Both the position numbers and the translations under genes were made by a program. A DNA stretch of 64,000 nucleotides from Psychromonas sp. Urea-02u-13. GTDB taxonomy: Bacteria > Pseudomonadota > Gammaproteobacteria > Enterobacterales > Psychromonadaceae. Under the pieces are notes generated by a model. It searched no databases, was not told where the DNA came from, and saw nothing but the letters and a program-made list of their open reading frames with translations. Location: the NCBI RefSeq assembly GCF_002835995.1, contig NZ_PJBZ01000042.1, positions 62,001-126,000 on the forward strand. The letters are read 5' to 3'. This document shows positions 15,585 through 18,846 of this stretch, one piece after another (the first letter of the stretch is position 1; every line of letters starts with the position of its first letter).

Positions 15585-16103
15585 CAAAGGAAAGGGCTGC
15601 CTGGGCTGCCCTAAGTTTAGTCACTCTATCCAATCCGTGATAGTTGATGCTCCCTGCTTGCATCCATTTGACTAATTGCCGTTCAAGGCATCCACTTCCC
15701 AATCCATTGGGCTCTTCCCTTTGTACATCCATATAAGATAAACATCATGTCTATCAATCATCTCCCTGTCCTTAGGAGGTGTCCTTCACTTGTCATCCTG
15801 ACTAATAATAACCATCCTAGTTATTATATTCCCTTCATCCTGAAAGGTGTTCCTTAACTACATCCTGTAGTTTGTTCCTTTGTTTTCCTTAACAATAATA
15901 ACCATCCTAGCTATTATATTCCCTTCATCCTGAAAGGTGTTCCTTAACTACATCCTGTAGTTTGTCCTTTTGTTTTCCTTAACAATAAAACATCCTGTTT
16001 TATTTCTTCTCATCCTGAGAGTGTCCAACGTGTCATCCTGACATTTGCAAAGAGTTGATTCGTTATTGTTCTACATCCTGTAAAACCGTATCTGCTCTCT
16101 ACG
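15585..16103 (-). ncRNA. csrB: CsrB-family regulatory RNA, copy 1
   Basis: On the minus strand the region holds nine exact CAGGATG motifs, most in the loop of a short perfect stem (for example CTACAGGATGTAG, TCTCAGGATGAGA, AAACAGGATGTTT), plus TAGGATG variants and several AGGA sites. This is the signature of CsrB/RsmZ RNAs, which sequester the translational regulator CsrA. A TATTAT -10 (16110-16115) places the start near 16103, and an imperfect stem AGGGCAGCC/GGCAGCCCT at 15593-15612 forms the 3' terminator. It shares long blocks with copy 2 at 18247-18658. Open frames here on either strand are by-products of the repeats. Length is about 519 nt, longer than E. coli CsrB (369 nt), partly through a 90-bp duplication. 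Confidence 0.88.
15804..15983 (-). repeat. 90-bp tandem duplication inside csrB copy 1
   Basis: Positions 15804-15893 and 15894-15983 are near-identical with a period of exactly 90 bp: ACCATCCTAG begins at 15811 and again at 15901. Copy 2 of the RNA has this unit once. Each unit adds one TAGGATG and two CAGGATG sites plus AGGA motifs, so the event enlarges CsrA-binding capacity. Confidence 0.9.
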
Positions 16104-16271
16104 GAACAAATAATACCTGTTTGCGCGAGAAAAATTTTACGATAAGGCATAAACAATTCAGTCCAAAGAACATCAAATAATAATATAGTCTTATTTTTCA
16201 TTTAGTTACGATGTTATTGTTTTTTTGAATAGTGAAATTTATTTTATATTAGAACAATCGCCCCAACCTAC

Positions 16272-16289
16272 AATGGTCGATCTCTCACA
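16272..16289 (-). promoter_or_regulatory. Upstream activating box of csrB copy 1 (UvrY/GacA-type)
   Basis: TGTGAGAGATCGACCATT on the minus strand occurs identically at 18829-18846 upstream of copy 2. Each lies about 170-188 bp before the predicted transcript start, the distance known for GacA/UvrY sites of csrB-type genes. The left half fits the TGTAAGN6CTTACA consensus with one change; the right half does not. Confidence 0.7.
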
Positions 16290-16676
16290 AGGTCATTTCA
16301 ATCATAATTTCCCCCGCGAAATAAGTGTGACAGAGGTAACATGAAAAGGAGAGTAAGCTCTATTTTAAAAATAAGTTTCATTAATAATAACGAATAACCC
16401 TCTTTTATCTCTCCTTAAATTCAAATAATCAAAGCCTAAAAACGTATAAAAGTGAATGACTGATCCTTATAGAAGAGAGCATAAAACACGCTAACATTTT
16501 AAGACGCTGTACTTTAATGGTGAAAATATAAAACAGTCTCGCTAAAACACTTAACTTCTTTAACAAATCACTGATACAGGGGCTACAGAGATAACAACCG
16601 CTTAACAATTATTGCTAGCTATTCTAATGGGAAGGCATATTATTCGTGCAGTTTTTAATTTGCTATAAGGTTTTTT

Positions 16677-17972
16677 ATGTCTGTCTACGCCAGTTTATGT
16701 TTTGTCGCGGCAGCGGCAATGTTGATTGCTTTTATCAACAGTAAGATAGGGAAGATGCAAAGCACGATTGCAATTACAGCAGGATCACTGATTCTATCGC
16801 TGATAATTATCGTTGCAGGTAAAAATGGATTTGAATCATTGGGCCATGAAGCAGCCCTACAACTCGATAAAATTGATTTTAATAGTTTCTTATTGAAAGG
16901 AATTTTAGGCTTTTTATTATTTGCCGGTGGCCTGGGTATTAAGCTGAACAATATACGAGACCAAAAATGGGAAATTACCGTATTAGCACTCGGTGCAACG
17001 TTGTTTTCAACCTTCTTTATTGGTTATGCACTGTTTTATATCTGCCAATACATCGGTTTTCAATTTGATCTAATTTATTGCCTATTATTTGGTGCGTTAA
17101 TATCACCCACCGATCCTATCGCCGTATTAGCCATCGTAAAAAAACTCGATGCACCGAAACGAATATCAACACAAATAGAAGGCGAGTCACTGTTTAACGA
17201 TGGTTTTGGCTTAGTCATTTTTGTTACCTTATTTGCCATTGCCTTCTCAGGCGAAAGCCCGAGCTTTGCTAGCGTTTCAGAACTGTTTTTACATGAAGCG
17301 ATTGGCGGTATTATTTATGGTTTTGCGTTAGGTCTAGTATTCCATTATTTAATTAGCGCCACCGATGATCACTCCATGGAGCTGTTATTAACCATTGGTA
17401 TTCCTACCGCAGGTTATGTATTTGCCGATATTATTCATGTTTCAGGACCGCTAGCTATGGTCGTTGCAGGTATCATGATTGGTAACTGGACCAGAAAAAA
17501 TGGTTTCTCTAAACAGAGTAAAGAAAATTTAGACCATTTCTGGGAGTTAGTAGATGAATTCCTCAATGGTATTCTGTTTTTATTGATTGGTTTAAGCATG
17601 CTTCAATACGGATTCCATGAAGAAGATTGGATATTGATGGTTATCGCGATTCCACTGGTATTGATTGCACGCTACCTAAGTATTCGCATCTCTTATTTTG
17701 GTTTTGGATTTTTCCGTGAATATAATCCTTATTCAGTAAAAATCTTAACCTGGGGTGGTTTACGTGGCGGGTTAGCATTAGCCATGGCAATGGCGATTCC
17801 ATCTGGCGTAATGATTATTCCGGAAAAGAATATTGATGTACGTGAAATCATCTTAGTGATGACCTACTCAGTGGTATTTTTCTCTATATTAGTTCAAGGC
17901 TCAACCATTACGCCATTGATCAATAAAGCAAAAGCCTACCAGAAGAAACACGAAGAAACGCAAGAGAAGTAA
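16677..17972 (+). CDS. NhaP-type Na+(K+)/H+ antiporter (CPA1 family)
   Basis: This 431-residue protein has about twelve membrane helices. Family marks are LFAGGLGIKL, the ion-site segment ALISPTDPIAVLAI (around residues 141-154), QIEGESLFNDGFGLV, and TWGGLRGGLALAMA near the end. It exchanges cytoplasmic Na+ or K+ for protons, fitting a marine lifestyle. The start ATG at 16677 has AAGG 7-10 bases upstream. It is a single gene between the two minus-strand csrB-like RNAs. Confidence 0.88.
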   Translation: MSVYASLCFVAAAAMLIAFINSKIGKMQSTIAITAGSLILSLIIIVAGKNGFESLGHEAALQLDKIDFNSFLLKGILGFLLFAGGLGIKLNNIRDQKWEITVLALGATLFSTFFIGYALFYICQYIGFQFDLIYCLLFGALISPTDPIAVLAIVKKLDAPKRISTQIEGESLFNDGFGLVIFVTLFAIAFSGESPSFASVSELFLHEAIGGIIYGFALGLVFHYLISATDDHSMELLLTIGIPTAGYVFADIIHVSGPLAMVVAGIMIGNWTRKNGFSKQSKENLDHFWELVDEFLNGILFLLIGLSMLQYGFHEEDWILMVIAIPLVLIARYLSIRISYFGFGFFREYNPYSVKILTWGGLRGGLALAMAMAIPSGVMIIPEKNIDVREIILVMTYSVVFFSILVQGSTITPLINKAKAYQKKHEETQEK

Positions 17973-18040
17973 GACGCTGAAAGCTTGAGTGCAAGAAGGC
18001 CTGAAGGTTTAAACTAATAGCTGACGGCTTGATAGCTTGA

Positions 18041-18120
18041 GGTTTTAAGGTTTTAAGGTTTTAAGGTTTTAAGGTTTTAAGGTTTTAAGGTTTTAAGGTT
18101 TTAAGGTTTTAAGGTTTTAA
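18041..18120. repeat. Ten exact tandem copies of an octamer
   Basis: GGTTTTAA repeats ten times without interruption (80 bp). The array is flanked by two copies of CTAATAGCTGACGGCTT (near 18014 and 18138). It is non-coding, lies just after the antiporter gene, and is expected to vary in copy number by slippage. Confidence 0.95.
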
Positions 18121-18156
18121 ACTGAAGGCTGACAGCTAATAGCTGACGGCTTAAAA

Positions 18157-18199
18157 ACTTTCTTTCAGGCAATGAAAAGGGCCGCCGAAGCTGACTGAA
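18157..18199 (-). repeat. Decayed copy of the csrB 3' terminator region
   Basis: AACTTTCTTTCAG..ATGAAAAGGG followed by GCCGAAGCTG matches the terminator end of csrB copy 2 (18232-18273) over about 40 bases, but the closing arm of the stem is broken. It is probably a remnant of a local duplication. Confidence 0.55.
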
Positions 18200-18246
18200 T
18201 ACTTAAGCTAGTCACGTTTTTAGGGGCGTTTAACTTTCTTTCAGAT

Positions 18247-18658
18247 ATGAAAAGGGCAGCCGAAGCTGCCCTTAATTTAGTCACTCTATCCAATCCTTGA
18301 TAGTTGGTGCTCCCTGCTTCGCATCCTTTTGACTATGCCTATCTAGGCTTCCTCTTCCCAATCCATTGGGCACATCCATTTATATATCCGTATAAGATAA
18401 ACATCCTGTTTATCAATCATCTCCCTTTCCTTAGGGGGTGTCCTTCACTTATCATCCTGACTAATAATAACCATCCTAGTTATTATATTCCCTTCATCCT
18501 GAAAGGTGTTCCTTAACTACATCCTGTAGTTTGTTCCTTTGTCTTCCTTAACGATAAAACATCCTGTTTTATCACTTCTCATCCTGAGAATGTCCAAGTT
18601 GTCATCCTGACAATGTAATCCGCTGAAGCTTATATCCTGTAAGTGACTGCGTGTTTAC
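18247..18658 (-). ncRNA. csrB: CsrB-family regulatory RNA, copy 2
   Basis: The minus strand shows seven exact CAGGATG motifs in hairpin loops (for example AAACAGGATGTTT twice, CTACAGGATGTAG, CTCAGGATGAG, GTCAGGATGAC) plus TAGGATG and CAGGATA variants. It ends in a strong terminator, stem AAGGGCAGC/GCTGCCCTT with a TTCG loop and then TTTTC. A TATTAT -10 at 18666-18671 puts the start near 18658, giving about 412 nt. The order of hairpins matches copy 1 apart from the 90-bp duplication there. Its role is to titrate CsrA; csrA itself is outside the window. Confidence 0.88.
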
Positions 18659-18828
18659 GAAAGTTATAATACGATGCTAACAAAGAATTTTAGTCGACAA
18701 AAACCAATAAAAATCATTCACTTAAACATTAAAAACAAGTTAAACAAACAAAATCAACGACTTACATAAAAACAGTGGACTATTAAGGTTGATCTGAAGG
18801 ACTTTTTACCACTATGTCTCCACTATAA

Positions 18829-18846
18829 AATGGTCGATCTCTCACA
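18829..18846 (-). promoter_or_regulatory. Upstream activating box of csrB copy 2 (UvrY/GacA-type)
   Basis: This is the same 18-base sequence, TGTGAGAGATCGACCATT, as upstream of copy 1, at nearly the same distance from its predicted start. Surrounding sequence is not conserved, which points to selection on the box itself. Confidence 0.7.

Follow-up and report, generated by a model that had tools for sequence, protein, structure and literature searches.

Two CsrB-Type RNA Genes Flanking an Antiporter Gene

The window, that is the whole stretch of 64,000 nucleotides of Psychromonas sp. Urea-02u-13 analyzed here, was confirmed to hold two CsrB-type RNA genes on its minus strand, which flank, as the initial annotation had proposed, a gene encoding a Na+/H+ antiporter (16677..17972, plus strand; PF00999, E 4.2e-56). 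CsrB-type RNAs are sponges of the global regulator CsrA and constitute a known kind of switch. Copy A (18250..18659, minus strand) would produce an RNA of ~410 nt with 27 GGA triplets, its ends being placed from the -10 element and the terminator, and copy B (15587..16103, minus strand) an RNA of ~517 nt with 32 GGA and ends predicted likewise. Nine and seven CAGGATG motifs had been announced on this strand and both counts were right, with nine at 15794-16080 in copy B and seven at 18402-18609 in copy A. These 16 motifs, all on the minus strand, belong to a total of 19 in the window, compared to 4.29 expected and a maximum of 10 among 100 shuffles. The number of GGA per 400 nt peaks at 29 and 27 at the two loci, and the next densest segment on either strand has 10. 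Similarly, a genome-wide search for three closely spaced AGGATG-type sites gave 14 occurrences, all of them inside copies A and B, versus four for the reversed control pattern.

A large part of these triplets is presented by hairpins. GGA flanked by a stem of 4 bp or more amount to 13/27 in copy A (null mean 5.2) and 16/32 in copy B (null mean 6.7), numbers equalled by 0 of 300 shuffles in each case, and the minimum-energy folds place 12/27 and 14/32 GGA, respectively, inside hairpin loops. That nearly all motifs lie in stem loops also held, since only one of the 20 AGGATG sites, located in copy A, has no stem, and the stems of the other 19 measure 3-11 bp.

Each copy is preceded by a TATTAT hexamer on the minus strand (18671-18666 for copy A, 16115-16110 for copy B), in agreement with the matching -10 elements described initially; the hexamer is kept in five aligned copies and gives the predicted starts. 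At the 3' ends, an inverted repeat is present at both loci as claimed, that of copy A (18254..18271, minus strand) forming a perfect stem of -16.5 kcal/mol, whereas that of copy B (15594..15611, minus strand) is imperfect, with one A-A mismatch, and weaker (-11.2 kcal/mol). A csrB-terminator-like fragment of repeat family D6 lies 3' of copy A (18172..18193, minus strand); it is degenerate, folds weakly (-3.3 kcal/mol) and is possibly the remnant of a former csrB copy. The segment separating copy A from the antiporter gene, where the 3' ends of the two face each other, also harbors a perfect 8-bp tandem repeat, AGGTTTTA, at 18040-18120; it has 10.1 copies, and its flank is repeated in part.

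A UvrY-Type Box Upstream of Both Copies

An exact match to the UvrY-type box TGTGAGAGATCGACCATT is found on the minus strand before copy A (18829..18846) and before copy B (16272..16289), centered ~178 and ~177 nt before the respective predicted starts. When two mismatches at most are tolerated, with either base at position 11, the 4.75-Mb genome contains three such boxes (reversed control, one), located before copy A, before copy B and before a GGA-rich RNA on contig C68. Throughout the genus, 48 of the 50 GGA clusters that could be tested have the box upstream with no more than three mismatches, the other two having five and six; the box is positioned 151-263 nt before the first GGA with a mean of 1.3 mismatches, versus 7.0 in shuffled sequence. 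The genome itself encodes CsrA, UvrY (70%) and BarA (45% over 1-915 of 918).

In the excerpts available of the published account, the UvrY site of E. coli csrB is TGTGAGAGATCTCTTACA, centered at -183/-182, and that of Salmonella csrC is TGTGAGACATTGACCATT, with weaker symmetry (PMC4682653). With its right half, the present box does not complete a near-perfect palindrome as in E. coli csrB; it rather resembles the weaker csrC sites (PMC4682653).

Family Assignment and Covariation

The proposed search with the Rfam model RF00018 returned zero hits when the whole window was scanned at the gathering score (cut-off 71 bits), which, taken literally, triggers the covariance-model half of the refuting condition set in the initial annotation. 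With E-value reporting, the two loci score 64.9 bits (E 2.9e-16) and 63.9 bits (E 5.7e-16) with all 356 model positions matched. Within copy B, the duplicated part accounts for an additional, partial match of 31.8 bits. The gathering score is thus missed, yet the CsrB-family identity put forward initially is supported by full-length matches at E ~1e-16, by covarying hairpins and by a UvrY-type box at each locus.

At E <= 0.001, RF00018 matches 28 of 41 genomes (the present one and 40 relatives), 16 of them above the gathering cut-off, compared with a single one of 14 control genomes, E. coli; at E <= 10, 8/14 controls match. The run at E <= 0.001, which used stricter filters, listed copy B, dropped copy A of the same genome and left 5 of the 24 same-genus genomes without a match, whereas blastn found a match in all 24 when queried with copy A plus the region upstream of it, which indicates that the filters and cut-off of RF00018 are tight for this genus. 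Matches to RF00018 on contigs C248 and C284 were rejected as terminator-like matches beside protein-coding sequence, and a further one on contig C12 reaches 8.9 bits only.

Covariation was assessed on 16 csrB sequences of the genus, namely copy A plus 15 sequences of relatives, all free of internal arrays. The consensus has 63 pairs in 11 helices, which are 95.2% paired, and 25 pairs changed on both sides. Either value was reached by 0/500 shuffles, a control inflated by sequence relatedness, and slid structures were 35-49% paired, a comparison that favors the true structure as it was predicted on the same alignment. Apart from the sub-gathering score, the presence at both loci of the CsrB-family features testable from sequence is supported.

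With a probability of roughly 95%, we therefore consider the two loci to be paralogous, UvrY-switched CsrB genes whose RNAs titrate CsrA, copy B having been enlarged by an internal duplication. By analogy with the CsrB family, from which transcription, UvrY control, CsrA binding and titration are extrapolated, BarA would activate UvrY, and phosphorylated UvrY would bind the box that precedes each start by ~178 nt and turn on copies A and B. Each RNA would then offer its 27 or 32 GGA sites, many of them in hairpin loops, to many CsrA dimers, and the sequestration of CsrA would free the mRNAs under its control. Copy B, having presumably gained CsrA sites through a later 90-nt duplication, would hold more CsrA per molecule.

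Origin of the Pair and Role of the Antiporter

The catalog of csrB-type genes, built from regions around blastn hits and thus liable to miss copies, comprises 49 clusters in 24 genomes, with three in nine genomes, two in seven and one in eight; the two identical copies of G012 lie at contig ends and may be one gene. The tree contains two triplets, one of copy A, the first G008 copy and G016:C3 (98/93), the other of copy B, G016:C132 and the second G008 copy (97/90), and the forks inside both are weakly supported. Since A and B each group with copies of G008 and G016, the pair would predate the species, and both genes most likely derive from an older tandem duplication.

The antiporter gene that separates the two copies seems to be a secondary feature. 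Copies A and B and the antiporter could in principle form one functional unit, for example if UvrY bound at the box of copy B acted on the divergent antiporter gene, and eight other loci of the genus (L206, L214, L219, L220, L223, L230, L232, and L234) indeed have a full-length antiporter copy with a divergent csrB immediately upstream of it. The csrB genes of these eight loci nevertheless belong to a separate clade (100/100), not to that of copy B, and their position beside the antiporter may be due to chance or to conversion of that copy. Moreover, the antiporter and csrB are on different contigs in G008, G010, and G016, the genomes nearest to the copies of the window, and 4/24 genomes lack an antiporter hit at E <= 1e-60. 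Between the two csrB copies of G008, the antiporter is absent. In view of the tree and of synteny, the idea that the antiporter is a partner conserved with copy B was set aside, and a common functional unit appears improbable.

A second alternative is that copy A alone is a working CsrB and that copy B is a decaying duplicate carrying a repeat and a weakened terminator. The terminator stem of copy B does combine its mismatch with a broken T run, and CATGATG replaces CAGGATG in one of its hairpins, but the copy retains the exact box, the -10 element, 32 GGA and the excess of hairpins. Its grouping with copies from two other genomes shows that it was kept across species, and the hairpin variant is old because CATGATG or CATGACG is common to the second G008 copy and G016:C132. 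Decay of copy B seems to us quite unlikely, and we retain two CsrB genes that would both function.

Internal Expansion of CsrB Genes

Copy B contains a tandem duplication (15804..15996, minus strand) of a 90-nt unit present 2.2 times with 95% matches, which is missing from copy A and from four related copies in the alignment. Neither this duplication nor the UvrY-type boxes had been mentioned in the initial annotation. Such arrays recur in the genus, where 10 of the 49 csrB-type clusters hold one, with periods of 57-159 nt. TRF applied to whole loci detected arrays of period at least 40 in 12/51 clusters (ten being the csrB-type clusters just mentioned and an eleventh G023:C58), and the 402,200 bases flanking them were free of such arrays. 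Extreme examples are G019, with 64 GGA in a 792-nt cluster made of 81-nt units repeated 6.7 times, G009, with 58 GGA in 731 nt (81 nt x 5.5), and G020, with 36 GGA in 519 nt (85 nt x 2.5). These three are sister copies in the tree (100/99), and the expansion events are not all independent. A third-type RNA, that of G001, has 54 GGA and a period of 105 nt. In expanded Psychromonas RNAs, stem-flanked GGA number 29/58, 21/44, 32/64, 18/40, and 20/41, values matched by at most 1% of 300 shuffles.

Similar arrays are found in the genus of Moritella, defined here by DNA identity to M. dasanensis (100% for G159, 85-92% for eight other genomes). In seven regions from six of its genomes (L268-L274), all 10 clusters consist of 50-52-nt units, with 2.8 to 12.6 copies and 22 to 62 GGA per cluster, the maximum being the 801-nt cluster of G070, with 62 GGA and 12.6 copies of a 51-nt unit. 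Two more chosen regions of this genus (L276 and L277) have such units in 0/4 clusters, so that an array marks particular csrB loci and not every copy. The 12 regions that were chosen for their neighboring RF00018 hits give no rate; among the 26 unchosen loci (L242-L267), an array of period at least 30 is present in 1/36 clusters, and among 11 earlier loci in 0/21, some loci overlapping one another.

One might also read the loci as repeats that are not transcribed, or as what is left of a repeat protein, the GGA motifs being a by-product, given the tandem repeat inside copy B and long stop-free runs on the sense strand of two Moritella-genus loci (136/267 and 127/233 codons) and on the antisense strand of G019 (206/264 codons), but single-base length differences between units shift the frame, the hairpins show compensatory changes, the box is conserved at a fixed distance and copy A has no such repeat, and this reading was rejected as having next to no likelihood.

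Arrays thus exist in Psychromonas and Moritella and their unit number differs between species; draft assemblies may miscount repeats, but G019 (2 contigs), G022 (1), G024 (3), and G135 (1) are near-closed. A broader proposal is that the CsrA-sponge genes of both genera behave like minisatellites, with hairpin modules gained and lost by tandem duplication and repeat number setting the capacity of the sponge, and on this we are evenly balanced. Copy B (90 nt x 2.2) would be an early stage of such an expansion, and G019 and G070 its far end; the tuning of CsrA capacity through repeat number would follow by extrapolation.

A Third GGA-Rich RNA

The third genomic box, on contig C68, is followed by a 487-nt cluster (L239 5106-5592; L239/L004) that contains 30 GGA, lacks CAGGATG, has an intrinsic terminator and is located between genes for DUF1145 and DUF1318 proteins. 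It scores 22.4 bits with RF00018. By blastn, it has matches of at least 190 nt in seven other same-genus genomes, and no match in 17 genomes from other genera. In a four-genome alignment, GGA tops the conservation of trinucleotides, with 0.81 over 30 sites versus 0.50 for all trinucleotides, three rows beginning at a fixed place, those of G010 and G016 ending early and missing letters being counted as not conserved. Presentation of GGA by hairpins is no higher than chance in this RNA (P 0.14 and 0.11). It was retained as Csr-like because of its exact box and of GGA being the most conserved trinucleotide, and would represent a divergent Csr-type RNA, a status less certain than that of copies A and B. 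The initial annotation had taken the pair to suggest a dosage-redundant Csr switch, which is plausible, and with this third Csr-like RNA, two would be an undercount of the Csr RNAs of the genome. On the same locus, L239 1886-3685 encodes a protein, which we take to be FtsY-like and whose N-terminal part includes a long low-complexity repeat of the EKLEA type.

Comparison with Known Csr Systems and Significance

The two genes resemble the CsrB/RsmB family RF00018 by their full-length model match, GGA in hairpins, the presence of barA and uvrY genes, the upstream box and the 3' terminator, and differ from it by their sub-gathering score and by the length of copy B (~517 nt), with its 90-nt internal duplication. 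For comparison, CsrB of E. coli is 369 nt long, and the numbering of its GGA sites goes up to at least 21 in the part of the source available (PMC5027483).

Several other bacteria offer parallels, each taken here from excerpts of the respective publication. Shewanella oneidensis has an adjacent pair, csrB1 and csrB2, with a protein gene between them and a box before each, and both depend on UvrY; however, the intervening gene encodes a transposase and the RNAs are predicted to have 420 and 421 nt (PMC3171408). In Vibrio and Aliivibrio, several csrB paralogs arose through gene duplication, including one neighboring pair, that of Aliivibrio, and the excerpted account covers copy number and synteny, without internal repeats (PMC6262261). 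The marine Pseudoalteromonas fuliginea has three Csr RNAs, Pf1 to Pf3, with 25, 21, and 9 GGA, which were detected through GGA, promoter and terminator and later verified; for Pf1 and Pf2, the paper reports no significant match outside the genus (PMC11882849).

Order-wide, RF00018 matches occur in at least 77/148 genomes and many are neighboring. In L191 (G032, from another family), five GGA clusters or RF00018 hits stand in a row, ~700 nt apart. Neighboring csrB copies are an ordinary, known arrangement. The recurrent internal expansion is the less ordinary part, which a specialist may not expect, and in the open-licence papers searched we found no report of internal tandem expansion of CsrB RNAs.

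The pair brings another genus into the well-studied Csr switch, and this genus is a case of likely csrB genes missed by the curated cut-off of Rfam. The expansions would make the stoichiometry of the sponge a natural experiment on the number of CsrA sites that one RNA can carry, and they raise the questions of whether capacity grows in step with the number of repeats and whether a change in repeats tunes a global regulator.
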